64,000 nucleotides of DNA, taken from assembly GCA_015039365.1 (NCBI GenBank), contig WION01000200.1, positions 1-64,000 of the forward strand. Direction: 5' to 3'. Position numbers and translations under genes: made by a program. Below the pieces are notes generated by a model, which was given only the letters and a program-made list of their open reading frames with translations, was not told where the DNA came from and ran no database searches. How positions within the stretch are numbered: position 1 is the stretch's first letter; each line of letters opens with the position of its first letter. Source of the stretch: Amanita rubescens (lineage: Eukaryota > Basidiomycota > Agaricomycetes > Agaricales > Amanitaceae). This document shows, in pieces, positions 2,491 to 45,742 of the stretch.

Positions 2491-3738
2491 TACATGAACA
2501 GCAGAGATTGCATTTAGTTTCCTGTGTCCATACTGCATGGAATGCAGTAGCAGCAGAGACTTGGATTTGGACACTCCTTGTAGGCAATGCAAGGTAGCAG
2601 TGTAGGGCAGGTAGAAAACACCAGAAAGCAAATGAACATTGCAAAAGACAAGTAAGCATCCAAAACCATAAGAAAAAGTTACAGCCAGCTTCACTGGTGC
2701 ATCGAAAGATGATGCAATTTGAGTCAAGTTAACACCCTTTATGAGATAATCATGCCAAGTTGCCAACAAGTAGCAGATCAGAGTAGGTGTAAGACTCAGA
2801 CAGGTTCAAAGAAACAGACACTACAAATAGCACCAAACAAAAAGTGGACATTGCAGTTAGCCTCCTGTGGCCATAAAGGGGTGCATGACATGCAGTAGCA
2901 GAGATAGTTTGAAAATCTTTTAATTCATGGTAGATGCAAACAAATAAATATTGCCAAAAACAAAAGTTTCATCAAATTGGATCCATGGAAAGGTGATGCC
3001 AAACAAGACATTGAAGGCAAATAGGCTGGCAAGGATACAGATAGCACAGACACCTTCAGCTAGGTCATGATATCTACAAGTTCACATGATAAATTCATCA
3101 GAGTATATAGAAAACAATTGCTAGATGCAGGTTGTACTGTGTGACATGATTATCACTGTCACATGCCTCCAAATAAGGAAAGTCTCCATGAAAGCAGATG
3201 TACATTGTTTCCTTTATATCTCCAAAACTACACCACCAATTCCTTAGCTATTTTAGGGCTGATATATTAAGCATATAAGCTTTTAATTCATATCTTTACA
3301 TTCAGGAAAAAATGGTTCTTTATTATACATATATAGGTATAAAATCCACATTAATATGGAAAGTCACCATGCGAGGGCTGTACTTTGTTTCCCTCATATT
3401 ACAAGAACTACTCCACCAATTACTTAGCTATTCTAGAGTTGATATCCAATGCATATAAGCTTTCATTTGATGTATTTACTCTCAGGAAAAAATGGTTCTT
3501 TGTTATACATATATAAGTATAAAATTCATATTAATTCTTTGTTGTCAGACCACATAGTACAAATGGTGCTCCATGACAAAATGTTGAGAACAGATATACA
3601 GTACAGTAGTACAAAAGCAGAAAACTGAATAAGAAAGGCTGAAAGTACTATAGCTAATGAGTTAAACATGAGAAGATACTAGGGGAAAGTTGACATGCCA
3701 TCATTGAGTGGAGGTTTTACTAGGATGCACTGAAGATA
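2490..3738. repeat. Decayed repeat units and a 180-bp tandem duplication
   Basis: 2490-3176 holds increasingly diverged pieces of the preceding unit without a clear palindrome. 3177-3357 and 3358-3537 are two copies of one another; both contain CAGGAAAAAATGGTTCTTT and TATACATATATA. Part of them resembles the 1000-1130 stretch (CCACCAATTNCTTAGCTATT). 3538-3738 matches the region next to gene B (GTGGAGGTTTTA followed by AGATACTATATCAGC). No coding region is seen. Confidence 0.6.
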
Positions 3739-6700
3739 CTATATCAGCAATTCCAGCTCAAAGAAGACAGGGACTGAGTTACATAATAAATTGTTAAGAA
3801 CTATTTTTCTGAATTCAGCACACTCTGTGTCAGATGGCTGATGTTTGATGGTGAACCAATCATTGATGTCCTTTGACCTCAAGTAGTGATCCACTTCTTG
3901 TTCAACCAGTGCATGCTGGGTCTTCAGATAAAGTTTCCAGGCCTTGGTGAAGCCATCAGTGGAATTGCAGCCTTGCTGGACAAGCCAGAAGGAATGTTCA
4001 AGACAGATGAGGATGGCTGTCCATGTAATAGTAAGAAACTGTAAATATAGGAGAAAGGGTAAAATTAATCAGACCAATAAAACAATGCAAAGAAGGTGCC
4101 TATGTAATTGGGAATACTTGAGTGAAGGGGATGAAAAGAATGAAATGTGATCTTACATTGAATTGAGTGTCCATAAGGCCCTGAACATGGTTCACCTGTC
4201 AGCAATTCAAATTGAGCTAGGAGGCACACAGTCACTCACTGCCTGGATGGGATTTCATGGCAACATGTCAGCAATTCAAATTGAGCTAGGAGGCACACAG
4301 TCACTCACTCCCTGGATGGGATTTCATGGCAACATGTCAGCAATTCAAATTGAACTAGGAGGCACACAGTCACTCACTGCCTGGATGGGATTTCATGGCA
4401 ACATGTCAGCAATTCAAATTGAGCTAGGAGGCACACAGTCACTCACAAGCTGGATGGGATTTCATGGCAACATGTCAGCAATTCAAATTGAGCTAGGAGG
4501 CACACAGTCACTCACTGCCTGGATGGGATTTCATGGCAACATGTCAGCAATTCAAATTGAGCTAGGAGGCACACAGTCACTCACTGCCTGGATGGGATTT
4601 CATGGCAACATGTCAGCAATTCAAATTGAGCTAGGAGGCACACAGTCACTCACTGCCTGTATGGGATTTCATGGCAACATGTCAGCAATTCAAATTGAGC
4701 TAGGAGGCACACAGTCACTCACTTCCTGGATGGGATTTCATGGCAACATGTCAGCAATTCAAATTGAGCTAGGAGGCACACAGTCACTCACAACCTGGAT
4801 GGGATTTCATGGCAACATGTCAGCAATTCAAATTGAGCTAGGAGGCACACAGTCACTCACAAGCTGGATGGGATTTCATGGCAACATGTCAGCAATTCAA
4901 ATTGAGCTAGGAGGCACACAGTCACTCACTCGCTGGATGGGATTTCATGGCAACATGTCAGCAATTCAAATTGAGCTAGGAGGCACACAGTCACTCACAA
5001 CCTGGATGGGATTTCATGGCAACATGTCAGCAATTCAAATTGAGCTAGGAGGCACACAGTCACTCACTCCCTGGATGGGATTTCATGGCAACATGTCAGC
5101 AATTCAAATTGAGCTAGGAGGCACACAGTCACTCACTCGCTGGATGGGATTTCATGGCAACATGTCAGCAATTCAAATTGAGCTAGGAGGCACACAGTCA
5201 CTCACAACCTGGATGGGATTTCATGGCAACATGTCAGCAATTCAAATTGAGCTAGGAGGCACACAGTCACTCACAAACTGGATGGGATTTCATGGCAACA
5301 TGTCAGCAATTCAAATTGAGCTAGGAGGCACACAGTCACTCACAAGCTGGATGGGATTTCATGGCAACATGTCAGCAATTCAAATTGAGCTAGGAGGCAC
5401 ACAGTCACTCACAAACTGGATGGGATTTCATGGCAACATGTCAGCAATTCAAATTGAGCTAGGAGGCACACAGTCACTCACAAACTGGATGGGATTTCAT
5501 GGCAACATGTCAGCAATTCAAATTGAGCTAGGAGGCACACAGTCACTCACAAACTGGATGGGATTTCATGGCAACATGTCAGCAATTCAAATTGAGCTAG
5601 GAGGCACACAGTCACTCACTGCCTGGATGGGATTTCATGGCAACATGTCAGCAATTCAAATTGAGCTAGGAGGCACACAGTCACTCACTGCCTGGATGGG
5701 ATTTCATGGCAACATGTCAGCATTCAAATTGAGCTAGGAGGCACACAGTCACTCACTCCCTGGATGGGATTTCATGGCAACATGTCAGCATTCAAATTGA
5801 GCTAGGAGGCACACAGTCACTCACTCCCTGGATGGGATTTCATGGCAACATGTCAGCAATTCAAATTGAGCTAGGAGGCACACAGTCACTCACTCCCTGG
5901 ATGGGATTTCATGGCAACATGTCAGCAATTCAAATTGAGCTAGGAGGCACACAGTCACTCACTCCCTAGATGGGATTTCATGGCAACATGTCAGCAATTC
6001 AAATTGAGCTAGGAGGCACACAGTCACTCACTCCCTGGATGGGATTTCATGGCAACATGTCAGCAATTCAAATTGAGCTAGGAGGCACACAGTCACTCAC
6101 TCCCTGGATGGGATTTCATGGCACCGTGTCAGCAATTCAAATTGAGCTAGGAGGCACACAGTCACTCACTCCCTGGATGGGATTTCATGGCACCGTGTCA
6201 GCAATTCAAATTGAGCTAGGAGGCACACAGTCACTCACTCTCTGGATGGGATTTCATGGCACCGTGTCAGCATTCAAATTGAGCTAGGAGGCACACAGTC
6301 ACTCACTCTCTGGATGGGATTTCATGGCACCATGTCAACATTCAAATTGAGCTAGGAGGCACACAGTCACTCACTCTCTGGATGGGATTTCATGGCACCA
6401 TGTCAACATTCAAATTGAGCTAGGAGGCACACAGTCACTCACTCTCTGGATGGGATTTCATGGCAACATGTCAGCAATTCACAAGTTATATTCCTATCAC
6501 TTTGAAATTCTTACATTTTCCCCCTTATCATTTGCATAATTAGTATATTGTCAAATTAGCTTAATGTCATACTCACATACTGAACATCCAGGTTAAACTT
6601 GGTCACCAATATTTGGTCATGATACTTACATCCTGAAACATCTGTGATCACCATCTTCCCTGGCTCAAGTAGAAGTGAACTCTCACATAATCCTTCTCAA

Positions 6701-8089
6701 TTTCAGTCATGGCTCAAGAAAATGCATTCAATTCGCATGCCTGCCAATAGCAATGTGCAAACCAAGATGCAGCTTTGTAAATCAAGTCATGCTTTGTTTA
6801 TTTGAGCACTCATAGTATCTGTACAATTCAAGAAAAAATGTACCACTGTTAAGGTATCCTGAAAGATATGCCTGAAATAGAGAGATAAGTTGAAGCAACA
6901 GCAGATATGTAAGCAGATAACAGACTTGTTCACTGCATATTCAATGCAGACCTCTAGGTTATTCTGTTGGACAGTGACAAACAACATCTTCAGTGCCAAG
7001 TCATCAATCGATGCCGCCGTCTGTTTGATTAGTTTCCCAACTTGTTCCTGATGATTACCTTCATCCTTCTCAATAGCTGGACACACTATAAGTCCCAAGA
7101 TTGGTTGCTAAAGGAGAAGAGACATACATTCAAATTGCACATATGCACAAGGTGAAGACTTATAATGCTTGAGTGGCTCCTCAAACTTCTCCTTCAAGGT
7201 AGCACAAGCAACTTCTCTATTCTCCTCTTCTTCTTTATTTATATCATAGACCTGCGTGATGAGATCATCAAATTTCGTGAAGATTGCCACAACTGGAACT
7301 GTTCATTGTCAGTCACAATGAAGAGTTTGGAGATTTTAAATGATCTTACCATTCCCGCAATATTTCTCATTGAAGAACCTCTGTTCCAATTCCAATAATG
7401 GGCGAGATACATCCGGAGTGAAACAAAACCTGAACACATTTCAGTTGTGCTACATAAAGGAAGGATATAACGCACCATATCACATGGATTTGGTCCTTTA
7501 CTTCAGTTGCTTTTGCCTTCTCCTGTATGAAAGAGCATACTTCCTGAAGTTCCTTCTCGCCTCCTGCCTCGAAACCGGGAGAGTCGTGGAAGATAAATTG
7601 TGGGTTGCTATTGAATGAAAACTCGTCATGGACGTTATGGATCCCTCGCTACAGAATCAAAGTCAACAACCTGGTTAGAGAAATGCACAAGGATCACCTT
7701 CGAGGATGGGTTAATCTGTCGGTGAAGGGGTGATGATAGTGCCAGGGTATCAAGGGAAGCGGATATCTTACCTTGCTGTAAACCGGATCCTCCTTTGTAT
7801 TGCAGACCCGCTTGAGCAGCGTCGTTTTACCGGCATTCGCCCTCCCGATGACAAGGATACGGAAGTGGGTGTACTTGGCCCGGAGTTTTGCAGCTTCTAC
7901 CGGGTCGATCGTCATCGTTGATACAGTGGGTGCTAGATCAGCTGGACTCGGAGGCACAGCAATGGTTGGAGGTGCCGAATTCGAGAGGCTAGGAGGCGTA
8001 CCGTTCTGCGATCCCCGTCCGAACATCTTCTTCAGGCGATTGCGAAATCCCTTGGATTCTTTGGCAGTCTGCAACCGTTGTTCAGCCAT
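3739..8089 (-). CDS. P-loop GTPase gene A with an array of 35 three-nucleotide microexons
   Basis: This is a Ras-like P-loop GTPase of the family expanded in Agaricomycetes. Motifs seen are G1 GRANAGKTT, G3 HDSPGFEAGG and G4 FTKFDDL. Exons (minus strand): 8089-7772 (basic N-terminus MAEQRLQTAKESKG), an 18-nt exon 7715-7698, 7648-7476, 7429-7350, 7298-7128, 7076-6926, and one starting 6871 whose end is uncertain. Then come single-codon exons GAT (6632-6630) and TAT (6579-6577) and 33 more in the 69-bp array. The 3' exons are 4180-4157 (24 nt), 4099-4075 (25 nt) and 4038-3739, which encodes a hydrophobic helix followed by CLEHSFWLVQQG and a conserved C-terminal segment ending in TAG. Lengths of the first exons keep the frame exactly. 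The phase from exon 6871 into the array is not resolved; phase 1 is excluded by a stop, while phases 0 and 2 are both open. The substrate or partner is unknown. Confidence 0.75.
4196..6480 (-). repeat. Homogenised 69-bp intron-plus-microexon array of gene A
   Basis: There are 33 full units and a partial one. Read on the minus strand, each unit is a 66-nt intron (65 nt in the units that lack one A) that starts GTGAGTGACTGTG, has a branch-point-like TTGCTGACAT and ends CCCATCCAG, followed by a 3-nt exon. Every unit keeps GTGAGT and a terminal AG, even where the base before AG has changed (CATCTAG near 5963, ATACAG near 4654). The triplets on the coding strand are GGA x9, GCA x7, AGA x4, TTT x4, CTT x3, GTT x3, CGA x2 and GAA x1. 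Outside the triplet, unit differences are few: a 1-nt deletion in five units, CACCGTG or CACCATG variants at the proximal end, and isolated substitutions. First triplet 6445-6443, last 4242-4240. Confidence 0.9.
7698..7715 (-). other. 18-nt microexon of gene A (INPSSK)
   Basis: The short exon is bounded by CGACAG on its 5' side and GTGATCC on its 3' side and adds six codons between VYSK and RGIHNVHDEF without changing phase. Gene B has the same exon (INPTSK) at the same place. Leaving it out would still keep the frame, so skipping is possible. Confidence 0.75.
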
Positions 8090-8960
8090 ATCGATGAGGG
8101 GAGATAAGAAGAGCTTTAGGGTCTATCTAGTCACTTCAGCCTGGAACGCTACTTATGGAAGGTGATCGTTACACGTCGTCTGTCAAAAAATGATAGGCTA
8201 CCGTACCGTCTCACAGACCTTATTCCCTTCCTTCTGCACTGTTCTCGCGCGAGAACTCAGCAACCCAAGAAGACCTCAGCACTCAGTCTGGAACTCCCTC
8301 GCTCATGTCCAACACGACCTCGGTCCCCAATCTTGTTCTTCCCACGGAAAACCCACCGCTGACGTCCTTCTTCCTCTCGTCGTCATCGGCGCCATCGTGA
8401 TCTGGGACATGGTCGAATGACGGTCACGTCTCCTTTGCCACCGACCTCGCCCTTCCACAGATTCTCGCGCCTCTCACGTAATCCATTCTGCTTATGCACC
8501 GCCTGTTCCTTCTCTGTACAGTCACAAAGAAAACTCAGTCAAAATCGACGTCAGCCTTCGTCCGCGGCAAATTGTCTCACTCTCAGAAGATATTTGCGTC
8601 AAGATACGGAGTGGTTAGGGCGACGACGACGTTCTCCCCGCTCTAGCTAGTAAGTTCACTCCTCTTACAACGGATGATATCTAATCCACTACCTCAGTCG
8701 GATCATGTGCCTCTACCAACAACCCCGGCCTACGGATCTTCTTCGATGGTCAAAATCGAGGAATAACAGGCCGACGGCTACCCCCTTCAATCCTCCCAGC
8801 CCCATCATTATGCCAGAACCCACCCCAACGACTACTGAGGCAGCACCTGTGTCTCCCCGCCATCGTCTCATGAGTCAGAAGAGTTGCTTGATGCACCAGT
8901 CGGCGGTCATACGATAGTGCAAATCTCGACGGTTAGTTCGGTTCATATCCTCCTCGCACT
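8090..8960 (+). pseudogene. 5' flank of gene A and remnant of a divergent gene
   Basis: The sequence upstream of gene A matches 45743-46410 upstream of gene B. It holds a plus-strand fragment reading MSNTTSVPNLVLPTENPP, a Ser-rich stretch, and then LCTACSF…RQDTEWLGRRRR. At gene B the same remnant is followed by a more recognisable C-terminal part. Frames are broken by indels between the two copies and no full gene can be assembled, so it is called a remnant. The shared bidirectional promoter of the two genes would lie in 8090-8280. Confidence 0.4.
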
Positions 8961-18249: not shown

Positions 18250-21200
18250 CTATGTTGACTGTACTGTTGTTGCACTGATTTCTTTGACCAGATCATCAAG
18301 TTCCTGAATGCAATAAGCTGTAGTGGGGTGGTTATATCCCATCTCAATTGTCATCATCTCAACAGCTTGAGACAGCAATGATTTTGCTTCATGCCATCTT
18401 CCTTGCCTTCTATATGTTATGGCTAAAGATGCCATTGTGGACAAAGTATCTGGATGGTGTAATCCATGTTTTGCATTTCTTGCACTCATCAACTCCACCC
18501 CTATCTTCTCTGCATCACCCCACTTTCTCTGACTGCTGTATATTATTTCTAAATTTTGCATGATTTGAAGAGTATCCAGATGGTCTGGTCCAAGATTTAC
18601 CTTCCTCACATTCATCACCTCCACTTGCAGGTTCTCTGCATCACCCCATTTCCCCTGCTTCTGGTATGTTATTGACAAGCTATGCATGATGCTCAGAGTA
18701 TCTGGATGGTCTGTTCCAAGTTTTGCTTTCCTTGCATTCATCACGTTGACTCCTATCTTCTCTGCATCACCCCACTTTCCCTGACTGCTGTATGTTATTT
18801 CCAAATTTTGCATGCTTTGAAGAGTATCCACATGGTCTTGTCCAAGCTTCAACTTTCTTGCATTCATCACCTTGACCTGCAGCTTCTCTGCCTCATACCA
18901 CTTGCCCTGATTCCAGTATGTTACTGCCAAAGAGTGCATGATGCTTAGAGTATCCACATGGTCTGGTCCAAGTTTTACTTTCCTTCCATTCATAACCTCC
19001 AATGCCATCTTCTCTGCATCCTCCCACCTTCCCTGACTGGTATATGTAGTTTCCAAGTTTTGCATGCTTTGAAGAGTGTCCAGATGGTCTGATCCAAGTT
19101 TTAATTTTCTTGCATTCATCACCACAACCTGCAGCTTCTCTGCCTCATACCACTTTCCCTGATTCCAGTATGTTACTGCCAAAGAATGCATGATGTGCAG
19201 AGTATCTAGATGGTCTGGTCCAAGCTTTGTTTTCCTAGCATTCATCAGCTCCAAACCCAGCCTCTCTGCATCATCCCACTTTCCCTGACTCCTGTAAGTT
19301 ATTTCCAAATTTTGCATGCTTTGAAGAGTATCCAGATGGCTTGTTCCAAGCTTTGTTTTACTTGCATTCATCACCTCCACCTCAATTTTCTCTGCCTCAT
19401 ACCACTTTCCCTGACTGCTGTATGTTATTTCCAAATTTTGCATGCTCTGAAGAGTATCCAGATGGTCTGGTCCAAGCTTTGATTTTCTTGCATTCATCAC
19501 CTTGACCTGTAGCTTCTCTGCCTCATACAACTTTCCTTGATTCCAGTATGATACTGCCAGATTTTGCATGATGTGCAGAGTGTCCAGATGGTCTGGTCCA
19601 AGCTTTGCTTTCTTTGCATTCATTACCTCCAGCCCTATTTTCTCTGCATCACTCCACTTTCCCTGATTCCTGTATGCTATTTCCAAATTTTGCATGCTTT
19701 CAAGAGTATCTAGATGGTCTGTTCCAAGCTTTGCTTTCCTCACATTCATCAACTCCACCCCTATCTCCTCTGCATCACTCCACTTTCCTTGGCTCCTGTA
19801 TGTTGCTTCTAAATTTTGCATGTATTTAAGAGTATCCAAGTGGTCTGGTCCAAGCTTTGCTTTCCTTGCATTCATTACATCCACTCCTATCTTCTCTGCA
19901 TCATCCCACTTTCCCTGACTCCTGTAAGTTATTTCCAAATTTTGCATACTTTGAAGAGTATCCACATGGTCTGGTCCAAGCCTTGCTTTCATTGCATTCA
20001 TCACTTTCACCCCTATCTTCATGGCATTGCCCCATTTTCCTTGACACCTGTATGTTATTTCCAAATTTTTCATGCTTTGAAGAGTATCCAGATGGCCCAC
20101 TCCAAGCTTTGCTTCCCTTGCATTCATCACCTTGACCCCTATTTCCTCTGCACCACCCCACTTTCCCTGACTCCTGTATGTTATTTCCAGGTTTTGCATG
20201 CTTCGAAGGGTATGTGGATGGTCAGGTCCAAGCTTCAATTTTCTTTCATTCATCACCTTGACCTGAAGCTTCTCTGCCTCATACCAGTTTCCCTGATTCC
20301 AGTATGTCACAGCCAAGGCATGCATGATGCTCAGGGTATCCAGATGGCCTCCTCCAAGCCTTGCATTCCTTGCATTCATCATCTCAACCCCTATCTCCAC
20401 TGCATCAGCCCACTTTCTCTGATGCCTATATGTTATTTCCAGATTTTGCATGCTTTGAAGAGTATCTGGATGGTCTGTTCCAAGCTTTGCTTTCATTCCA
20501 TTCATCACCTCTAAACCCATCTTCTCTGCATCACCCCACTTGCCCTGCCTCCTGTATGTCACTGAAAGAGAGTGCATGGTGCTCAGAGTATCCAGATGAC
20601 TGGCTCCAAGCTTTGCTTTCCTTGCATTCATCACCTCAATCTGCAACTTCTCTGAATTGCCCCATTTTCCCTGACTCCTGTATGTCACAGCCAAGCTGTG
20701 CATGGCATTGAGAGTATCTAGATGCTCTGTTCCAAGCTTAGTTTTCCTTGCATTCATTACTTCTACATGCAGTTTCTCTGCATCATCCCACTTCCCTTGT
20801 TTCCAAAAGGTTAATGCCAAAGTGTGCATGGCTGAGAGAGTATCTGGATGATCTGATCCAAGCTTTGCCTTTCTTGCATCCATCACTTCTATCACCATCC
20901 TTTCTGCCAGATCTAGCTTTCCCTGACTCCAGTATGTTTTTACCAAATTGTGCATAGTGTTAAGAGTATCTGGATGGTCTGGTCCAAGCTTTGACTTTCT
21001 TGCATTCATCACTTCCACTTGCAGTCTCTCCGCCTCATGCCATTTCCCTTGCTTCCAGTATATGGATGCCAAACCATGTAATGTATCTAGATGGTGTGAT
21101 CCAAATATTGCTTTTCTTGCTTTTCTTGCTTTTATCACCTCCATCTGGAGCTTTTCTGCATCATCCCACCTTCCCTGGTGCAAGTATGTTGATGCCAAAT

Positions 21201-22999
21201 GGTGCATGGCCAACAGAGTATCTGGATGGTCAGATCCAAGGTTTGCCTTTCTTTCATTCATCACTTCAACACCCAACTTCTCACACTCATCCCACCGTCC
21301 CTGCCTACAATATGTTGATGCTAACCTTTGCATGATGCTGAGAGTGCTTGGGTGTTCTAGTCCAAGCTTTATTTTGTGGTGTTCAGCTGCAAGAAGTAGC
21401 AGCTTCTCTGATTCATCCCAACTACCAACATGATCAAAAACAAGTGCAAATCTAGCACATTCATCATCATAGTATCTGCTTTCCAGCTTGAGTTGTGATC
21501 CATGTAAATAAATTATCCTAATATGTGGTGCAAGTAGTTTGCAGAATGCATAATTATCAATTTTCCAATCAAGTGCCACAGAGCATGACAACAGTGCCCT
21601 TGTTTTCCAATATTGATTAGTAATGTCTGTCTGGGGGATGATATGCCTGCTCCACTTATTTACTAATGGATGCATTGAATATTGATCATCAACAACTTTG
21701 ATTAAGGAGAATGAGAGTAGAACTTGGGTTCCATCCTTGAACCTCATTCTGTCCCATTCACCATCTTCCTTGTTCAAAAGCAGATTCTTATCATCCAACA
21801 GTATTACTGATGATGGCAAGTTGGACTGTGACTCCTTTACAAGATCTCGTTTCAAGTAATTCTCCGCTGCATTCATGAATAATTCTTCAGGAATATTCTC
21901 ATGGTTTAAAAAGGCAAAAGTTTTTAGAAGTGTGATTGCAGTTTGTGCTGCTTGAGCCTCATGCCCAGCTCCTTTTTCAGCCATGCTTTTGATATGTTCA
22001 ATTGAAATGTCCCATATTTCATATGCAGATCTTCCATAACCAGAGGCTCCTTTGAATCCTGTTCTTGACATCAAATCTGGCTTGTGTTCTTTTAATAGTT
22101 TGAGATATTCATCAATGCTGTACTTATATCTGTGGATGAATGTACCTGCTTGGTCAACAGCAAGTGGCATTCCACCCAATTCAGACACAACCTTTTTGGC
22201 TAATCTTTTTGTGTCTTCAGACATGTCATCAAGGTTCATCATGGCTGATTTTAACAGCAAAAGGACAGCCTCATCTTCAATCATGCCATCAACATCCACT
22301 GAATCCAATGCCAGTCTCTTCAATCCTGCATTCCTACTTGTAATTAAGACATTTCCCCCATTCCCTGATGGCAGGAATTTGTCAACCACTGAGTAATCCC
22401 CATCTGCACCATCATATATCATGAGCCACCCAGATGCTTGAGTAATCCACTTGATAGTGGCTGGAGGAGATTGTTCTGCTTCCTTTGGGACATTGTTAGC
22501 CTGAGCTATCTGCTTTAGTCCAAGTTCAATACTAGTCTCTGACGATGCATCAATCCAATATATATCAGAAAACCTGAGACAAGCTGTTCATTTCAAACAA
22601 GTATTATACTATTGGTATGCTCACAAATCATGACTTTGCTCAATGAATTTCAAGCAAATCTGGGTTTTTCCGATACCTCCCATACCATGCAAAATGAAAG
22701 ACTTTCTTTGGCCCTCCACATGAGAGCTGAAATATGCTTTCAGTCTTTGCAAGTATTCATCTCTACCTGTGAAGAATATACTAGAATGTTTCTGGGATGC
22801 TGAAGAAGGTAGTGTGGTCTCAGCAGGACTCAGAGCAGCATGATAGATGTTGGTTGTGATGCTTTTTGCCTATGGATCAGAGTTAGTTCCATACTACCAA
22901 TGAACAATTATTAAACACAATAACCTCGTTAAATGTGGAACTCGTCACAGCGAAATCTTTTGCGTGAGCAAAGTTCCCACCTTGCTGAGGGTTTGTCAT
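18250..22999 (-). CDS. NB-ARC/TPR NLR-type protein with 24 near-identical TPR units
   Basis: Three exons (22999-22925, 22869-22625, 22573-18250) join in frame to 1,547 aa. The second exon has FFTGRDEYLQRLKAYF and the Walker A motif GMGGIGKTQICLKF. The third has SGWLMIYDGADG (Walker B), NVLITSRN and GGMPLAVDQAGTF, the usual NB-ARC order. From about residue 460 it carries 24 kinesin-light-chain-like TPR units of 42 aa with core LGPDHLDTLQSMQNLEITY. The product is a signal-transducing ATPase of the fungal NLR class that would oligomerise on ligand sensing by the TPRs. An alternative start at 23244 (exon 23244-23074 spliced to 22984) also keeps frame and adds a basic N-terminus. No separate effector domain is visible at the N-terminus. 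The TPR part is highly repetitive in DNA, so copy number is likely unstable. Confidence 0.85.
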
Positions 23000-34391: not shown

Positions 34392-37300
34392 ATGGCAGCT
34401 ACAACTGGTACATTAATTTATGTGACTCAGCATTGCTAATCCTTGACTGACACATATCAGATGCAGATGAGACACATGTTCAAATACTCATGAAACGCTA
34501 TCTATGCCCACATTTTCGCATCCTTATCATTGGGAGGGCTAATGCAGGCAAGACAACTATCCTTGAGAAGGTTTGTGGTGTAGCAAAGGGGACAAAGTCC
34601 ATCATATATGACAAGGGTGGTAAGTCAGTCTGAATTTTGTGCACCCTTTGACTTGACTAGTATTGTTTCTTGTAGGTAATAAGCTTGAACAGTCTGTGAT
34701 TCATTTGATGCCATCAATTGAAGTGAGTCAGATAATGATGTATGGATGTACCCATTCACATGCAATGATAACAGAGAGGCCTGCATGATATTGAGCATCA
34801 AATTACATACCCTGGAAGTAACTTTATCTTCCATGACTCTCGGGGTTTTGAAGCTGGTTCAACGGAGGAATTGGAGATTGCTTGGAAGTTCATTGAAAAG
34901 AAGTCTGCAGAAACTGAGCTGAAGAATCAGCTGCATGCAATTTGGTATCTTGCTTTATCCCTTTACAATACTGTCTGATCTGGTTTTCTGCAGGTACTGT
35001 ATACCCATGGATAGCCCTCGTCCCATTCTATCTGCAGAGCTTGAATTCTTCAATAAAGGGACAGGCAGAGGTAAGTCCTAATGAATTTGTATACCATCTT
35101 GTTGGGTTTGGAGAGATTGTTTACCTTTCCAATTGCTAAATTGCCACAAAATCAACTTACTGACTAGCAATATTTCCTTTACAGTTCCTTTGGTGGTTAT
35201 ATTCACCAAATTTGATGGTCAAATAACCGCTGAATTTACCAACTTGACTGATGCAAATAATGAAGATAAGTGGGAGAGAGCCAGGGAAAATGCTGAAATC
35301 ACTTTTCAGGAAGTTTATCTTCCTAAAGTTTTGGATGCCAAATATCCTCCCAAGGCATATGTGCAATTGGAAGGTGAGAAGAATGAGGATTTCTTCCCAA
35401 AAATTGGGAGTAATATTGTTTCATAGACATGGATTTACCAGAGAAGAATTGTGCTGAATTAACTCAGAAAACTGCTGATGCAATAGATGATGACACCATA
35501 CAACAGCTGTTTGTCTCAACACAGATGAACAATCTTGACCTTTGTGTTGAATCTGCACTTCAGTGAGGGTCACATTCAAAATCTCACTTACTGACCTTGA
35601 CATTGTTCAGACATGTTCTGAAACATGAAAATTGGACATGGCATCATGTCATTCTCATAATTTTTGGAAAATTTCCACATTTCTGGGTATGCATTTTTGT
35701 CAAACTGCACATTGGCATAGGAAAATTCAAATGGCGATAGGTCCACAGAGATGTAGGTGGCCTTCATATGGAATGATGAATGCTTCAAAAGTTTATCAGG
35801 AGGTAAGTAACACTCCAATGCCTTCACATGAAAACAAGATTAGTCATGTGTCAGATGGCTGGTAAACGACTGAGTGAAGCACAGGTCAGTTGTCACCATA
35901 TTCTTGGTGGTGGGATCTGATAAAATTAATATCAGTGGGTTAGTGACATTGCACCAGCATAGACCTGATATATTTCTCATGACAACAGTTTGTGAGTAAT
36001 GCTTCCCTTTGTGATCCGCAGTCTTGTCCCATAATCTACAGGAAGTGAGTGACATGACTCAATTTTGATTTTGGGTAAATGATTGATGGCACATCATATG
36101 ACCAATAGCAAGTGAGTTAATCAATCATTGTAAGCAGACTTGTCAATCCAGTCTTCCATGGTCAGGGAGTCAGTAATACAACACTGCTTCACACTGCATC
36201 TGACCTGCTTAAAGAAAGTAAGCAACATTGATATTTGTGCAGCTTATCAGACATAACTCAACAAACAACAGAAAGTTGGTGACATCCTGGTATCTGAAAG
36301 AGAGTCTCAATAAACTTGATTGGATTAATAACAGGAAGTAAGTCAGATTTTCTTTCTGTCTGCTTATAAACATTACATCTTGTCTCAAAACAACAGACAG
36401 TAAATATTTCTCCTATTCAAAGCTTCTTCTTCACAAGCTATTGTAAAACAAACAGCATGTATGTGATCCTTTTGTGAGATGTGAACTCATCATATGAAAT
36501 ACCATGGCAAAAGAGAGTTAGCATTGTTTTCTTTTTCCCCAATGCATGATGCTAATTTTATTCTAAAAGGAAGTGAGTAATACTGGCCACATTGCTACAG
36601 GACAATTTGGACACATCTTGTTGTACAGATTGTGAGTGATATTACAAATTTTGTGAAAAGCAGTGAATCCATGTCTTTTCTTATGGGTTTAGAAGGTTAG
36701 CAGGATGTCACACTGGTTTGGTGTTTCAAAGATGACCTTATCAAAATTTTACCTGTGGCCAACAGTATGTAAGTAATGTTCGAAATATTTCTGAAAAGCT
36801 GCTTTATGTATTTTTCCCCAACTGACAGCATGTGAGGAACATAGAAGGTTGTGTAGAAGGCAGTCCAAGTCTCATCACATCTTTTCCCATGATCAACAGG
36901 GAGTGAGTGACATTGCACATTTTGTGAAAGGCAGTCTCATCACATCTTTTCCCATGACCAACAGGTTGTGAGTGACATTACACATTTTGTGAAAGGCAGT
37001 CTCATCACATCTATTTCTATTACCAACAGGGAGTGAGTGACATTGCACATTTTGTGAAAGGTAGTTTCATCACATCTTTTCCTATGACCAACAGCTTGTG
37101 AGTGATATTGCACATTTTGTGAAAGGCAGTCACATCACATCTTTTGCTATGACCAACAGGTTGTGAGTGACATTGCAAATTTGTGAAAGGCAGTCTCATC
37201 ACATCCCTTTCTATGACCAATAGCAAGTGAGTGACATTGCACATTTTGTGAAAGGCAGTCTCACCACATCTTTTACTATGACCAACAGGGAGTGAGTGAC

Positions 37301-39830
37301 ATTGCACATTTAGTTAAAGGCAATCTCATCACATCTTTTGGTATGACCAACAGGTTGTGAGTGACATGGCACATTTTGTGAAATGCAGTCACACACATCT
37401 TTTGCTATCACCAACAGTCTGTGAGTGACATTACACATTTTGTGAAAGGGAGTCTCATCACATCTTTCCTATAACCAACAGGCTGTGAGTGACATTGTAC
37501 ATTTTTTGAAAGGCAGTCTCATCACATCTTTTGCTATGACCAATAGCTTGTGAGTGACATTGCACATGTTGTGAAAGGCAGTCTCATCACATCTTTTCCT
37601 ATGACCAACAGGGAGTGAGTGACAGTGCACATTTTGTGAAAGGCAGTCTCATCACATTTTTTCCTATAACCAACAGGTAGTGAGTGATATTGCACATTTT
37701 GTGAAAGGCAGTCTCATCAAATCTTTTGCTATGAATAACAGGTTGTGAGTGAGATTGAACATTTTGAGAAAGGCAATCACATCACATCTTTTGCTATGAC
37801 CAACAGCTTGTGAGTGACATTGCACATTTTGTGAAAGGCAGTCTCATTGCATCTTTTTGTATGACCAACAGCAAGTGAGTGACATTGCACATTTTGTGAA
37901 AGGTAGTCTCATCACATCTTTTCCTATGACCAACAGCTTGTGAGTGATATAGCACATTTTGTGAAAGGCAGTCTCATCACATCTTTTTGTAACCAATAGC
38001 AAGTGAGTTACATTGCACATTTTGTGAAAGGCAGTCTCATCACATCTCAACAGTTTGTGAGTGACATTGCACATTTGTGTAAGGTAGTCTTGTCACTATG
38101 ACCAACAGCAAGTGAGTGACATCATACATTTTGTGAAGGGCAGTTTCATCACATCTTTTCCTATGACCAACAGCTTGTGAGTAATATTGCACATTTTGTG
38201 AAAGGCAGTCTCATCACATCTTTTCCTATGACCAACAGCAAGTGAGTGACATGGCACATTTTCTGAAAGGCAGTCTTGTCATATCTTTTGGTATGACCAA
38301 CAGCAAGTGAGTGACATTGCACATTTTGTGAAAGGCAGTCTCATCACATTTTTTCCTATAACCAACAGGTTGTGAGTGACATTGCACATTTTGTGAAAGG
38401 CAGTCACATCACATCTTTTGCTATGATGAACAGCTTGTGAGTGGCATTGCACATCTTGTGAAAGGCAGTTTCATTACATCTTTTCCTATGACCAACAGCA
38501 AGTGAGTGACATTGCACATTTTGTGAAAGGCAGTCTCATCACATCTTTTGGTATGTCCAACAGGGAGTGAGTGACATTGCACATTTAGTTAAAGGCTGTC
38601 TCATCACATCTTTTCATATGACCAACAGGTTGTGAGTGACATTGCACATTTTGTGAAAGGCAGTCACATGACATATTTTGCTGTCACCAACAGTTTGTGA
38701 GTGACATTGCACACAGACTTGCACACAGAAGTCTCATCACATCTTTTCCTATGACCAACAGCAAGTGAGTGACATTGCACATTTTGTGAAAGGCAGTTTC
38801 ATCACATCCTTTCCTATACCAACAGCTTGTGAGTGACATTGCACATTTTGTGAAGGGCAGTCTCATCACTTATTTTGCTTTGACCAACAGCAAGTGAGTG
38901 ACATTGCACATTTATTTTGTGAAAGGTAGTCTCATCACATCTTTTCTATGACCAACAGTCTGTGAGTGACATTGCACATTTTGTGAAAGGCAGTCTTGTC
39001 ACTATGACCAACAGCATGTGAGTGACATTGTACATTTTGTGAAAAGCAGTTTCTCACATCTTTTCCAATGACCAACAGCTTGTGAGTAATATTGCACATC
39101 CTGTGAAAGGCAGTCTTGTGGCAGTCCAAGTCTCATCACATCTTTTCCCATGATCAACAGGAAGCAGTGAGTGACATTGCTCTTTTTTTGAAAGGCAGTC
39201 TCATTGCATCTTTTGATATTACCAACAGGGAGTGAGTGACAATGCATATTTTGTGAAAGGCAGTCTCATCACATCTTTTCCTAGGACCAACAGGAAGTGA
39301 GTGACATTTCACATTTTGAGAAAGGCAGTCTCATCACATTGTTCCTATGATCAACAGCTTGTGAGTGATATGTACATTAGAATGTTTTACTCTATCTCAT
39401 TGATAGTCTGAAATTTTCTCCATTTTTGGAGACAGGGAAAGGCTGTTTGCAATCCAGGTATCTTGTTCTTTTATTATGTGGGTAGTACACAACTGATGCA
39501 ATGCATCAAGCCTGCTGATTGCCAGATTTTAGTTTGTAAATTATTCCTTTTCATATGTGGTATTTATCCTTAAAACTTCAAGCAATTATCATTATTGCCA
39601 AGCTATCCTTTTGGATCGATGCATCACTTCAGCTATCAGTAGCACAAGCCTTGTATCAATACAAGCAAAAAGGCTACATTCAAAAACTAAAGACTGACAT
39701 TACTGCTGACCTTCTGCACTATGGTCATAAAGATTTGGTCACATTGCTCTATAGGAAGGTGACTCACATTGATGGTGGGTCCTTTGTCTACTCATGCACT
39801 AGTACTTATGAACAATTTATGGCAGGGTGA
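34392..39830 (+). CDS. P-loop GTPase gene C with 56 microexons
   Basis: Exons 34392-34407, 34461-34619, 34676-34722, 34775-34944, 34994-35070, 35185-35373, 35427-35562 and 35611-35686 encode a GTPase with G1 GRANAGKTT, G3 FHDSRGFEAGS and G4 IFTKFDGQ. The last of these ends in a hydrophobic stretch WHHVILIIFGKFPHFW in phase 0. Then follow 55 exons of 3 nt and one of 6 nt between 35800 and 39360. The gene ends with exon 39436-39457 (GKAVCNP) and exon 39583-39830, a hydrophobic helix AIIIIAKLSFWI and a C-terminal segment homologous to the end of genes A and B. All exons together give 1,311 nt, an exact multiple of 3, so 436 aa. If the array were removed as one intron the protein would be 379 aa, also in frame. 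The 113-nt interval 35687-35799 could hold a further small exon. The function is unknown; the layout suggests a membrane-anchored GTPase with a variable linker. Confidence 0.8.
35687..36902 (+). other. Diverged microexon series of gene C (18 units)
   Basis: Triplets flanked by AG and GT lie at 35800 GAG, 35936 TGG, 35989 TTT, 36042 GAA, 36109 CAA, 36166 GGA, 36215 AAA, 36272 AAA and 36335 GAA. They continue at 36397 ACA, 36456 CAT, 36514 AGA, 36570 GAA, 36629 ATT, 36693 AAG, 36766 TAT, 36829 CAT and 36900 GGA. The introns between them share little sequence yet each has a GTRAGT-like start (GTGAGT, GTAAGT, GTCAGT, GTTAGC, GTATGT, GTTGGT) and a pyrimidine-rich or AACAG end. That the exon length stays 3 while the introns have diverged is the best sign of selection on these exons. 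Weakest members are 36272 (GTTGGT donor) and 36514 (AAAAG acceptor). Confidence 0.75.
36903..39360 (+). repeat. Homogenised 65-bp intron-plus-microexon array of gene C
   Basis: There are 38 units. Each has an intron of about 62 nt that begins GTGAGTGACATTGCACATTT and ends CCTATGACCAACAG, followed by an exon NNN. Triplets are CAA x9, CTT x9, GTT x6, GGA x4, TTT x2, TCT x2 and single GCT, GTA, CAT and GAA, plus one 6-nt exon GAAGCA at 39161-39166. Introns differ by scattered substitutions and small indels (51 to 79 nt) but keep GTGAGT and a terminal CAG or TAG throughout. None of the triplets is a stop in phase 0. Confidence 0.9.
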
Positions 39831-41438: not shown

Positions 41439-42119
41439 GCAACAATAAGGATGTCAAAACCCTCAAGTTTGTCAGCTGCACTCCCTCATTCATTTTCTTG
41501 CATGGACATCTTTTTGTTCATACTCACAATCTTGCACACTTGTCATATTGTCTTGCAATCAATGCATCCCAGTGCTCTGGGTGGGACATGTTCTGACAGC
41601 ACATGATGGGTTTCTGGCCCAGATTTCTCACTGGGCATGAGTCCTGGAAAGCCCACCACACAGCCAGGCTTGGGCCAGGCTTATTAGGGCAGGCAGGCTT
41701 AGGGCTTCAGGCCCAAGCCAGCACATGACTAATTTCACCATTGCTTCTGCCATTCCCCACACACTACCATCTATTCCTGATGAGCAAGGGACATTTCCTT
41801 ATACCAAGCAGTCAAATTGAACAGTCCAGAGGGGTGTGACAGCAGTGGAGAGGAGAGGCTAAGCACTCCTGCAGAACTCCTGCTGTTGTGACATATATAT
41901 CACTACTTGTCACAATCAGCCCAAGATTGAAGGCTCAATATCTCAAAAACTGGACCACTGATTTCTTAGGTTGGTAAGTGGTATATGATAGCTTCCACTG
42001 ATACAATAACATCTGGAGAAAGTGATGATATGTTTATAGCATTAGTGTTATAAAACACTGTATAATGATCAAGTGGAGGTTTTAGGATGTGCTGAAGATA
42101 TATCAGCTAATATTCCAGC
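41439..42119. repeat. 3' flank of gene B, matching 781-1170
   Basis: 41740-42070 is the partner of 781-1130 (CAGTCCAGAGGGGTGTGACA, GATTGAAGGCTCAATA, AAAAACTGGACC). Before it, 41600-41720 has short runs based on CAGGCTTGGGCCAGGC. No gene is seen. Confidence 0.6.
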
Positions 42120-45100
42120 TCAAAGAAAACTGGGACTGGACTTACATAATAAATTGCTAAGAACTATTTTTCTGTATTCAGCACACTCTTCATCAGATGG
42201 GCAATGCTTTATAATGAACCAATCATTGATGCCCATTAACCTTAAGTAGTTGTCCAAGTCTTGATTAACCAGTGCATGCTGGGTGTTGAGATAAAATTTC
42301 CAGGCCTTGGTGAACCCATCATTGGGATTGTAGCCTTGCTGGACAATCCAGAAGGAATGTTCAAGACAGATGAGGATTGCTGTACATGTAATGGTAAGAA
42401 ACTGTAAATATAAGAAAAGGGTAGGATTAATCAGACCAGGGAAACAATGCAAAGAAGGCACCTATGTAATTGGGAATACTTAAGTTAAGGGAATGAAAAG
42501 AATGAAATATGATCTTACATTGAATTGAGTGTTCACAAGACCCTGAACATTGTTCATCTGTGAAATTCATGCCTATTAATGAAGTAGGGCAAAGAGAGTA
42601 GGTGGGAGAAGACAGGTACAAACTAAACAAGTTGTGAGGGTGATGTCAGCAATTCAGGACTCAGAGGTGCACAGTGACTCACAAGCTGGATGGGATTTCA
42701 TGGCAACATGTCAGCAATTTGAATTGAGCAAGGAGGCACACAGTCACTCACAAACTGGATGGGATTTCATGGCAACATGTCAGCAATTCAAATTGAGCTA
42801 GGAGGCACACAGTCTGTTACAACATGGTACGGACTCCCGCATTATGCTTACATGATACGTCGGACATGTTTATTTTCTTATGCCTACCTTACTCGTCGTC
42901 TCCCTTATGCTCGATTCATACGGACAAGCTCATTTCCTTACTTATACCATTCCTTGTTCCACATATGACGCCGTCTTTATACTCCTTTCGTACTTACCAT
43001 TATTCATTAATTAGTACGTCTCATTGTACTTGCTAGTATAAATACCGCATGTATTCTAGAGTCGAACCCTAAGTTCGACTTAGCTGTTTATTGTCGTCTG
43101 GCAATATAACCTTACTCTTAACTCAACTACCACAATCGTCCTCAGATCCTAAGTCAACGTCTTGACTTAGTATTGAACTTATAATCTTAACGTTTGACTT
43201 AAGACTTGTAATCGTAACTAGAGTTGCCGCTGCAACTTAGGTTGAGATTAACGAGTTCGTAACACAGTTGCTCACTTGCTGGATGAGATTTCATAGCAAC
43301 ATGTCAGTGATGAAAATATATAAAACCATATATTATAAAACCATATATTATAATGATAATATATTGTAGATATTTCTTATCTTATCTTCTATCTTATCTT
43401 ATCACAAGATAAGATAGAAGATAAGATACTGATAATCAAATCTATACTAAAGGATATAGATTAAGTAGATATAAATACGCTTGCGTCATAGTTACTAGAT
43501 ATGATTCCTTATGAATCATATATCGTCATTCTACAGCAATCTGTCAAGAATGAACTCTATAATATCTGTCATACAGCAATATGTCAGATATGACAGAACA
43601 CTATAATTTCTGTCAATCATTATGACTAGGAATAGATCATATGATGAGTCAATATGATGATAGCTGTGTAATACAATACACACCTTATCATCCAATAGGA
43701 TAAGGTCCGTAGATAGCATAGTTTACACTTATTTGTATCTCAGACAATATAAAAGGAGGGACAATTCGTTGTTCCCTCCTAACTTCTTACTCTCATCTAC
43801 ACATCTTATAGTTGAGCCTCAGCTCCTATAAAGTCCCTCAAATCAACCTCCCACCTTCACAGTAAGTCAGTTCCTTACTCAGTATCATGTATGCTGCGCT
43901 GCTGCGTTGGACTCCATGATGAGGAGTCTTCCAACTTCATCAGTCAGCAATTCAAAATGAGCTAGGAGGCACACAGTCACTCACTCCCTGGATGGCAACA
44001 TTTCAGGAATTAAATCAGGTGAAGGAGGTACACAGCAACTCACCTTCTAGATATGAGGTGAATCTTTTCTATCAATTTGGAATTCTCCATGTAACTTGCT
44101 TATTACCTCCTATACACTACATTCACAAGTTACCTTCCTGCCACTTTGAAATTCTTACATTTTCCCCCTTATCATTTGCATAATTAGTATATTGTCAAAT
44201 TAGCTTAATGTCATACTCACATACTGAATATCCAGGTTAAGCTTTGTCATCAATATTTGATCATGATACTTACATCCTGAAATATCTCTCATCATCATCT
44301 TGGGCCCTGGCTCAAGCAGAAGTGGACACTCACATGATCCTTCTCAATTTCAGCCACAGCTCAAGAAAATGCATTCAATTTGCACACCTGCAAATAGCAA
44401 TGTCCAAACCAAGATGCAGCTTTGTGAATCAAGTTGTACTTTGTTCATTTGAGCACTCAAATTTCTACAATTCAAGAAAAATTGTACCACTGTTGAGGTA
44501 TCCTCAAAGATAAACCTGAAATAGAGAGATAAGTTGAAGCAACAGCAGACAAGTGGATACAGACTTGTTCACTGCATATGCAATGCAGACCTCTAGGTTA
44601 TTCTGTTGGACAGTGACAAACAACATCTTCAGTGCCAAGTTGTCAATTGACACTGCTGTCTGTTTGATTAGTTCCCCAACTTGTTCCTGATGATTACCAT
44701 TGTCCTCTTGGATGGCTGGACATGCTATAAGTCCCAAGACCAGTTGCTAAAGGAGAAGAGACATACATTCAAATTGCACATATGCACAAGGTGGAAACTT
44801 GTAGCCCTTAAGTGGCTTCTCAAATTTCTTCTCCAAGGTAACACAAGCAATTTCTCTATTCTTCTCGTCTTCTTCATTCCTATCATAGACTTGCATGATG
44901 AGATCATCAAATTTTGTGAAGATTGCCACAACTGGAACTGTCTGTGGTCAGTCATGGTGAAGAGTTTGGAGATTCTAAACAATCTTACCATTCCCACAAT
45001 ATTGCTCATTGAAGAACCTCTGTTCCAATTCCAATAATGGGCAAGATACATCCAGAGCAAAACAAAACCTGAATGCATTGTCAGTTGCACCACATAAAGG

Positions 45101-45742
45101 AAGGATATCATGATAACACACCATATTGCATGGATTTGGTCCTTTACCTCAGTTGCTTTTGCCTTCTCCCGTATGAAAGAGCATACATCCTGAAGTTCCT
45201 GCTCACCTCCTGCCTCGAAACCAGGAGAATCATGGAAGATAAATTGTGGGTTACTCTGGAATGAAAACTCATCATGGACATTATGGTTCCCTCGCTACAG
45301 CATCAAAGTCAAAGACCTGTTTAGAGAAATGTGCAAGGATCACCTTTGAGGTGGGGTTAATCTGTCAGTGATGGGGTGTCAGATGATAGTGGGGTATCAA
45401 GTGAAGCAGATATCTTACCTGGCTGTAAACTGGATCCCTCTTTGTATTGCAGACTCCCCGCTTCAGCAGCATCGTTTTACCAGCATTTGCTCTCCCGATA
45501 ACGAGGATACGGAAGTGGGTGTACTTGGCCCGGATTTTCGCAGCTTCTAGTGCCGGGTCGGTTGTCATCATTGACACAGTGGGTGCTAGACTCTCAGCTG
45601 GAGGCATAGCAACGGTTGGAGGCGCCGAATTCGAGAGGCTAGGAGGCGTACTCAGGATCTGCGATCCCCGTCCGAACATCTTCTTCAGGCGATTGCGAAA
45701 TCCCTTGGACTCTTTGGCAGTCTGCGACCGTTGGTCAGCCAT
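42120..45742 (-). CDS. P-loop GTPase gene B with 7 microexons, paralogue of A
   Basis: Exons 45742-45419, 45361-45344 (18 nt), 45294-45122, 45068-44989, 44937-44767 and 44715-44565 match gene A exon for exon, most with equal length. G1 is GRANAGKTM, G3 HDSPGFEAGG and G4 FTKFDDL. An exon starts at 44515. Single-codon exons are GAT 44276-44274, TAT 44223-44221, AAG 44046-44044, GGA 43987-43985, CAA 43278-43276, TTT 42754-42752 and CTT 42685-42683. The 3' exons are 42542-42519, 42461-42437 and 42401-42120 (CLEHSFWIVQQGYNPND). Two solo LTRs sit in introns of the microexon region. In the frame that suits the C-terminal helix the 24-nt exon contains TGA, so gene B may be a pseudogene or use a slightly different splice pattern. 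Confidence 0.65.
42815..43264. mobile_element. Solo LTR 1 (450 bp) in an intron of gene B
   Basis: The element starts TGTTACAACATGG and ends GTTCGTAACA, giving a TGTTAC/GTAACA inverted terminus. It is flanked by CAGTC on the left and CAGTT on the right, a 5-bp target-site duplication with one change. An internal GTATAAATACCG at about 43037 could be the LTR TATA box. No internal retrotransposon region remains. It splits a unit of the 69-bp repeat. A Copia-like origin is possible from the size. Confidence 0.85.
43308..43942. mobile_element. Solo LTR 2 (635 bp) in an intron of gene B
   Basis: The element starts TGATGAAAATAT and ends CCAACTTCATCA, so the termini TGATGAA/TTCATCA are inverted. A perfect 5-bp duplication GTCAG flanks it. 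CAATATAAAAGGAGGG at about 43745 is a likely TATA region, and a 17-nt inverted repeat built on CTTATCTTCTATCTTATC lies near 43380-43430. It is a different family from LTR 1. Confidence 0.9.
45344..45361 (-). other. 18-nt microexon of gene B (INPTSK)
   Basis: Bounded by CTGACAG and GTGATCC on the minus strand, phase 0 on both sides. It is the counterpart of 7698-7715 in gene A. Confidence 0.75.

Follow-up and report, generated by a model that had tools for sequence, protein, structure and literature searches.

The window analysed here, i.e. the whole stretch of 64,000 nucleotides (nt) at positions 1 to 64,000 of contig WION01000200.1 (assembly GCA_015039365.1) of the mushroom Amanita rubescens, contains gene C (34392-39830, + strand), a P-loop GTPase gene in which dozens of successive exons consist of one codon each. 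The final model has 68 exons and 67 introns, all of them GT-AG, and runs through 450 codons to a sole, terminal stop; all inner exons have lengths that are multiples of three and are in phase 0. Between 35687 and 39435, 59 introns of 46-79 nt separate 55 three-base exons and further exons of 12, 30 and 6 nt. Without splicing, this region would run into 83 in-frame stops, and its length is 3n+2; splicing is therefore required. On size and splice sites, the 55 exons of 3 nt between GT-AG introns are microexons, in the sense of internal exons far below about 36-51 nt that lie between splice sites and enter the mRNA. The underlying pattern AGNNNGTRAGT has 91 exact sites on both strands of the window, as compared to 3.57 expected (100 shuffles, none reaching 91); of these, 46 belong to the + strand of 35687-39435, and two sister genes on the - strand account for 41 of the remaining 45.

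The first-pass annotation of this DNA had recognized the run of AG-NNN-GTRAGT units and had described dozens of successive single-codon exons in phase 0 within a P-loop GTPase gene, which the 46 sites and the gene C model bear out. Its details had to be revised: it had counted about 56 introns of 50-133 nt, had taken all exons to be of 3 nt except one of 6 nt, and had arrived at 437 codons. In the refined model, which was obtained by spliced alignment guided by P0002 and P0033, two database proteins, two introns of the simple parse turn out to conceal an exon each, VHRD (12 nt) in that of 113 nt and MAGKRLSEAQ (30 nt) in that of 133 nt, and the codon GGA (36166-36168) is recovered within a former 103-nt intron; the open frame as such stayed intact. 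Gene C comprises the following parts:

34392-35562, + strand: seven ordinary exons with the P-loop GTPase part (GRANAGKT); GT-AG and frame check, homologues up to 88% identity
35611-35686, + strand: final ordinary exon before the split segment, ending ...IIFGKFPHFW; conserved in paralogues
35741-35752, + strand: 12-nt exon VHRD; spliced alignment with P0002 and P0033, VDRE-like exon in paralogues
35800-35802, + strand: single-codon exon GAG (E); spliced alignments of gene C and paralogues
35855-35884, + strand: 30-nt exon MAGKRLSEAQ; P0033 reads MANKQLSEAQ at the matching place
35936-36831, + strand: 16 single-codon exons forming the constant block (W F E Q G K K E T H R E I K Y H), the introns between them unlike in sequence; spliced alignments
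36900-39360, + strand: variable tandem array of 38 single-codon exons and one 6-nt exon (GVGLVQGVSALGVVLQLQFQLQQVLQGVFQLQSHLEAGEL), introns mostly 61-62 nt, 65-nt period; Tandem Repeats Finder (TRF) and final model
39161-39166, + strand: the 6-nt exon of the array; final model
39436-39457 and 39583-39830, + strand: two ordinary 3' exons with the C-terminal segment AIIIIAKLSFW... and the terminal stop; final model

Constant block and gene family

The motif spelled by the small exons of gene C is present without interruption in P0002 (386 aa, from a Joint Genome Institute (JGI) contig of 1,446 nt) and in P0033 (311 aa, JGI contig of 1,903 nt). As these contigs are too short for such introns and the frames are uninterrupted, the two sequences are probably spliced transcripts of related Amanita. 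In the A. rubescens genome, part of P0033 scores best at a place of 81% identity, and the top exon-wise value listed is 92%. P0033 reads ...FPHFW VGRDEMANKQLSEAQWFEHGKKDTDKQIVYDG, as compared to FPHFW/VHRD/E/MAGKRLSEAQ/W/F/E/Q/G/K/K/E/T/H/R/E/I/K/Y/H/G in gene C (slashes mark exon boundaries). Spliced alignment to gene C gave z = 12.0 for P0033 and z = 9.6 for P0002, each against 100 shuffles past FPH(F/L)W, with splice-site weights that were taken from gene C itself and were equal for real and shuffled guides. Judged from these alignments, the constant codons are very probably included in the mRNA. The first-pass annotation had considered that the cell splices in every codon, and for the first, conserved codons this gains support from the homologous proteins; its interpretation overall is partly supported.

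The single-codon arrangement is not unique to gene C, as it recurs in two other genes of the window and in paralogues at many loci of the genome (75.7 Mb, 786 contigs). The GTPase family is large, with at least 210 exon-wise matches at E <= 1e-6 in 150 scored candidates out of 462, and it has relatives in other mushrooms according to the homologue listing. In an earlier model of 438 residues, gene C matched the Pfam family MMR_HSR1 (PF01926) at residues 25-112 with 20.0 bits, which is below the cut-off of 21.9, and PF01926 is annotated in 6 of the first 40 homologues listed for gene C. With a family-consensus guide, the motif, which is about WFEQGKKETDREIxYDG in the family, was found codon by codon in 15 of 16 loci, at least to REI or a close variant; the 15 include L024 and L025, both near-copies of gene C. 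For the final four codons (xYDG), the alignment is clean in about half of the loci. The remaining locus, L021, shows no motif pattern with this guide (its parsed codons read WFEQGKETDREIYG), apparently because the fetched stretch starts inside the preceding exon.

When 13 codons (WFEQGKKETDREI) were compared between 14 loci, the codons were 92.5% identical at the nucleotide level and the residues 81.7%, the splice sites 94.4% and the intron interiors 78.1% (L024 was dropped, and the gene C model used in this comparison differed from the final one by one acceptor). Within gene C, the introns of the constant block are unlike one another. The distant paralogue L017 (- strand) has 48 introns between exons that spell ...QNDEID/F/E/R/A/R/V/A/G/R/E/R/S/F/Y/QE/G/S/W/.../E/R/D/F/R/Q/E/F/L/K/R/E/I/I/PELLSLFG, and these codons have contiguous counterparts in P0047 (...RRDFVEREILPGLLSLF; z = 8.7) and P0034 (...EREDFLKREILPELFSVFG; z = 4.9; 60 shuffles); P0028 shares 37 of 95 aligned positions with L017. 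As the introns of L017 are unlike one another, the single-codon architecture appears to be older than the tandem arrays.

Among the homologues P0001 to P0120, the protein models of A. rubescens and A. brunnescens end before FPH(F/Y)W or 0-52 residues past it, with P0070 as an exception, and annotation therefore loses the array and the C-terminal exons. A. brunnescens may have arrays of this kind as well.

Gene C itself has a second copy, L023 (G000:C311), which is 99.9% identical over 4.8 kb and has identical codons; it represents either the other haplotype or a recent duplicate. A further copy, L024 (- strand, about 2475-5183), has an array that is split by about 2.7 kb of other sequence.

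Variable array

Beyond what had been noticed before, the split segment consists of a constant and a variable part, and the variability lies in the DNA, between neighbouring units as well as between loci. In gene C, TRF repeats with a period of 65 cover 36868-39116 and 39129-39368. The contrast between constant introns and varied codons is strongest in young arrays. In L021 (68/69 units), the mean intron heterozygosity is 0.016, as compared to 0.68, 0.66 and 0.58 at the three codon positions; in gene A, a sister GTPase gene of the window, it is 0.010 versus 0.57, 0.67 and 0.48 (28/29 units), and in L010 0.004 versus 0.09, 0.66 and 0.21 (43/44 units). Identical introns accompany differing codons: 41 such introns have 9 codons in L021, 37 have 5 in L010, and 22 have 6 in gene A. 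Among 335 units that were compared, the exact 62-nt consensus intron is present in 120 copies, at L010, L021, L030 and L031, with 16 different codons preceding it. L010, L030 and L031 have nearly the same constant codons, followed by unlike variable strings. Differences by whole units were seen between near-copies (one unit each between L021 and L029 and between L012 and L027), and codon runs and short blocks recur within arrays above 300 shuffles. Blocks common to different arrays did not exceed shuffles, and an exchange of codon blocks between loci was rejected on this ground. Intron ends and adjacent codons are weakly linked, which may reflect co-adaptation of splice sites.

The array parser, which allowed exons of 1-15 nt as well as stops, was applied to the window and L009-L025 with the gene C copies included, and 996 of its 1,021 small exons are 3 nt long. 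When the copies L023-L025 are set aside, 18 arrays provide 877 triplets with 0 stops, whereas 57-73 would be expected from base composition, and after collapsing runs the expectation is 66 in 780 triplets. Exact units of the form AACAG NNN GTGAGTGACATTGCAC number 1,021 genome-wide (a count distinct from that of the parser and equal to it by chance), with six TGG, one TGA and no TAA or TAG; another 13 exact units have an exon of 2 nt and 6 one of 4 nt, and 17 of these 19 are located in C749 and C13. The intron family of gene A, which is unrelated to that of gene C, has 500 exact units genome-wide, with 0 stops and no TRR triplet.

The third base of the array codons is strongly biased, as 94% of the triplets end in A or T versus 64% of 289 ordinary gene C codons, and the third-base G+C content is 6% in array codons versus 36% in ordinary gene C exons. 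NGA occurs 178 times and NGT 3 times in the arrays, as compared to 4 and 12 times in the ordinary exons; NGT would create a second GT, which explains its scarcity, and a second GT donor is clearly avoided. With NTT 184 and NTA 20 times present, a TAG acceptor is likely avoided as well, and no avoidance of a CAG acceptor is seen among the 877 triplets, in which NCA (30) and NCT (35) are about equally frequent. The same 877 triplets include no cysteine codon.

The two other genes of the window with this architecture are:

3740-8090 (approximate ends, by eye), - strand: gene A, sister GTPase gene; its array, at 4181-6686, has 33 units (RRRRGGGGGGGAAFFFLFVRGVRLVEAAALAGA) of an unrelated 66-nt intron family; TRF, alignments
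42100-45740 (approximate ends, by eye), - strand: third GTPase copy, related to gene A, with a broken array remnant (units about 42677-44278); alignments, site count

The array of the third copy is perhaps broken by inserted sequence around 42.8-43.9 kb. A separate open frame of 1,390 aa at 18250-22422 (- strand) has an NB-ARC match and 18 TPR_10 tetratricopeptide stretches with a DNA period of 126 nt, and it looks like a fungal gene of the NOD-like receptor (NLR) type.

Interpretation and alternatives

Gene C probably belongs to a large family of Amanita P-loop GTPases whose single-codon exons are spliced by intron definition and whose array is a variable region built from codon cassettes. 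The split segment would then connect the GTPase part with the C-terminal exons, and the spliceosome most likely removes the short introns singly by intron definition, so that nearly every codon would reach the mRNA. Splice sites and the intact frame can be read directly from the DNA, and from them we infer the order and completeness of intron removal. Introns of 46-79 nt suit intron definition, and a sequential removal is expected because an exon of 3 nt can hardly host both neighbouring complexes simultaneously; the splicing machinery itself is presumably ordinary. A pairing of non-neighbouring sites would drop codons but keep the frame. While the first 16 codons would supply the conserved motif, the following 65-nt tandem array would serve as the variable region, with a unit that consists of a constant intron and one codon. 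Units are mostly gained and lost as a whole, which would preserve the reading frame, and duplication and conversion probably homogenise the introns, with selection possibly keeping or favouring different residues. Homogenisation of introns together with retention of different codons appears to be the simplest reading of the contrast within arrays. The array could thereby be the codon-cassette counterpart of repeat-based variable domains in fungal non-self recognition genes. A role in such recognition is a guess, suggested only by the likeness to repeat-based fungal recognition genes (PMC1805685; here and below, statements on published systems refer to the available parts of the cited papers). 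It is conceivable, although rather doubtful, that we are dealing with a hypervariable region with one codon per exon, in which identical introns are the handles for duplication, loss and exchange of codons, and which provides the family with a repertoire that changes quickly, perhaps serving recognition among fungi or between fungus and host, and that codon skipping may enlarge further.

A number of observations weigh against this interpretation of the array. When a protein that unites the array and the C-terminal exon was looked for, none of 63 candidates reached E <= 1, and a search with the end of P0002 found P0002, P0033 and P0001 only. The P0002 tail is unlike the arrays in composition. 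After the motif, P0033 reads RLLQRNYEHQYQNLLLLPLQ, which matches the array composition (0.2% of background draws reach it), and of the 41 residues of its tail the first 20 resemble arrays but the last 21 do not, a split that was chosen post hoc; as the ordinary middle part of P0047 also exceeds most background draws (2.9% reach it), the composition test is not very specific. The absence of stops is confounded, as AG/TAA/GT and AG/TGA/GT would recreate the donors GTAAGT and GTGAGT and splicing alone could exclude these triplets; as proof of translation it was rejected, since cryptic donors would explain part of it. Between near-identical copies, codons and introns differ to the same degree (4 of 1,020 nt, one of them probably from aligning a missing unit, versus 83 of 21,641 nt; six overlapping pairs). 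Codon diversity thus exceeds intron diversity within arrays but not between such copies, where no selection on the variable codons is visible. Of the four arrays that carry the 120 identical introns, L010 (exons of 4, 2, 4, 2 and 2 nt) and L031 (a single 4-nt exon) have net frameshifts; the other two, L021 with 83 exons and L030 with 42, have 3-nt exons only. The arrays with 2- and 4-nt exons (G000:C749:2127-4149, L010 and L031) are perhaps decaying or otherwise spliced. Exon length, too, is at most a soft sign of a frame constraint and was rejected as proof: 13 of 899 parser exons are not divisible by 3, as compared to 14.5 expected from the per-base rate of the introns, and of these 13 at least 7 are parser errors, one lies beyond the array end and 5, all in L010, remain. 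In gene C, the contrast is weaker than in the young arrays (introns 0.099, codons 0.50, 0.66 and 0.50; 24/25 units), and most other arrays listed likewise have intron heterozygosities of 0.06-0.15 with a smaller contrast. Finally, an amphipathic order of the variable residues was looked for in 18 sequences and rejected, as no pattern was found (combined z 1.1 and -0.5). The comparison of copies also shows no excess of codon changes, from which we conclude that present triplet hypermutation is not the cause of the contrast within arrays.

What alternatives exist? If only the conserved 5' codons were exonic, the 65-nt array could be a minisatellite that is removed within one long intron, with splice sites that are decoys or relics. 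The missing protein with a full array and C-terminal exon, the tail of P0002 and the second half of that of P0033, the possible splicing origin of the stop deficit, the equal differences between near-identical copies and the frameshifts in L010 and L031 all fit this explanation. It is nevertheless unlikely, as triplets without a function would be expected to share the uniformity of the sequence around them, whereas the array triplets are far more varied than the introns; moreover, the third-base rules keep each codon boundary unambiguous, the first 20 residues of P0033 past the motif fit the array composition, and the C-terminal segment AIIIIAKLSFW... follows further downstream in 16 of the 18 sequences given (window and L009-L025), missing in the shorter fetches L024 and L025. 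The variety of the triplets, the unambiguous boundaries and the preserved C-terminal segment support translation of the variable part, and quite probably the variable codons are included in the mRNA. Slightly less unlikely than a minisatellite, but still not to be expected, is that combinatorial alternative splicing is the main purpose of the array, so that skipping of codon subsets, which the first-pass annotation had offered as the other option, would give many linkers from one gene. Inner exons in phase 0 with lengths that are multiples of three, and donors and acceptors that are nearly interchangeable within the gene C array, would keep the frame at each skip, whereas the variation between loci is already present in the DNA. 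Such skipping is compatible with codon cassettes spliced by intron definition, and both can be true together.

The introns could in principle also be a mobile, introner-like family that was inserted between the codons of a once-continuous exon, in which case identical introns would flank old codons. Introners with target duplications of 3-9 bp are known (PMC9860276), the genome contains 1,802 matches to the intron stretch when up to 3 mismatches are allowed, identical copies lie beside unlike codons at four loci, and the codons between the L017 introns match a continuous segment in relatives. This would require an insertion at nearly every codon boundary, always in phase 0, and it agrees poorly with the third-base G+C content of the array codons, with codon runs and blocks that are duplicated within arrays, and with constant-block introns that are unlike each other; a mobile origin is therefore improbable. 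Among the intron matches listed, a part of the 1,802 places, the loci that were read hold arrays of this GTPase gene family. An assembly artefact or decayed pseudogenes would be barely credible: nearly all exact units whose exon has 2 or 4 nt come from C749 and C13, the frame is lost in L010 and L031, and the arrays of L024 and of the third GTPase gene look interrupted, but gene C is unbroken between its start and its stop, the second copy carries the same codons, and many loci with different codon strings share one architecture, which makes a single assembly error impossible.

Comparison with known systems

Single exons of this size have been described. For a 1-nt exon of Arabidopsis, intron definition with sequential removal was proposed (PMC4674806), two 3-nt exons were noted in the fungal lipS gene (PMC5639578), and Fusarium CYP621A has a 1-nt exon (PMC12940212). 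Such exons can be spliced, but they are single cases and not runs of dozens, and in 2024 functional microexons were stated to be previously undescribed in filamentous fungi (PMC11121469). Aimed literature searches, with preprints and most subscription papers outside their scope, found neither a comparable run of single-codon exons nor an array with constant introns and variable codons.

The nearest counterparts each share a part of the system. Schistosome micro-exon genes (MEG) have 10-20 exons, mostly of 15 bp, and introns of 0.1-5 kb, and they encode secreted proteins and are alternatively spliced; as in gene C, there are many very short in-frame exons per gene, mostly multiples of three, that are hard for automatic annotation (PMC10526429). 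Gene C differs in its 55 one-codon exons, in its introns of 46-79 nt instead of long ones, in encoding a GTPase, and in the tandem array of similar introns with differing codons. The bicycle genes of aphids form a highly divergent family with many small exons, and the microexons of one related gene number over 100, but nearly all of their internal exons are in phase 2, and identical tandem introns are not mentioned in the available part of the source (PMC9168663). In Cryptococcus, intron gain by repeat expansion gave identical neighbouring introns through duplication within a gene; it concerns few introns in one gene, and single-codon exons are not mentioned in the part available (PMC2395259). 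Brown algal ROCO GTPase genes have each repeat motif on its own exon, shuffled and alternatively spliced, but there an exon holds a whole leucine-rich repeat (LRR) motif and not one codon (PMC11378527).

The WD repeats of het-d and het-e (HNWD) in Podospora, also a fungal gene family, resemble the arrays in that concerted evolution keeps the units similar while few positions vary (PMC1805685); in the Amanita arrays, units are likewise similar within and between loci and are gained and lost. The constant part of the HNWD unit is translated (WD40 repeat), whereas in Amanita it is an intron, bounded by GT and AG and with 62 nt not a multiple of three, and each unit contributes one exonic codon. 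As the constant part of the repeat is an intron, it would put no constraint on the protein, and the array is possibly a new way of building a variable protein segment. If the codons are spliced as inferred, these genes would be a diversity-generating design with the intron as the constant part of each repeat, they would test the minimum size of exons and the order in which the spliceosome acts, and annotation could miss whole protein segments. While single 3-nt exons are known, here one-codon exons alternate in dozens with introns some twenty times longer, and it is this system of dozens of single-codon exons, with an array of constant introns and variable codons, and not the single exon, that appears to be new in the light of the literature searched.

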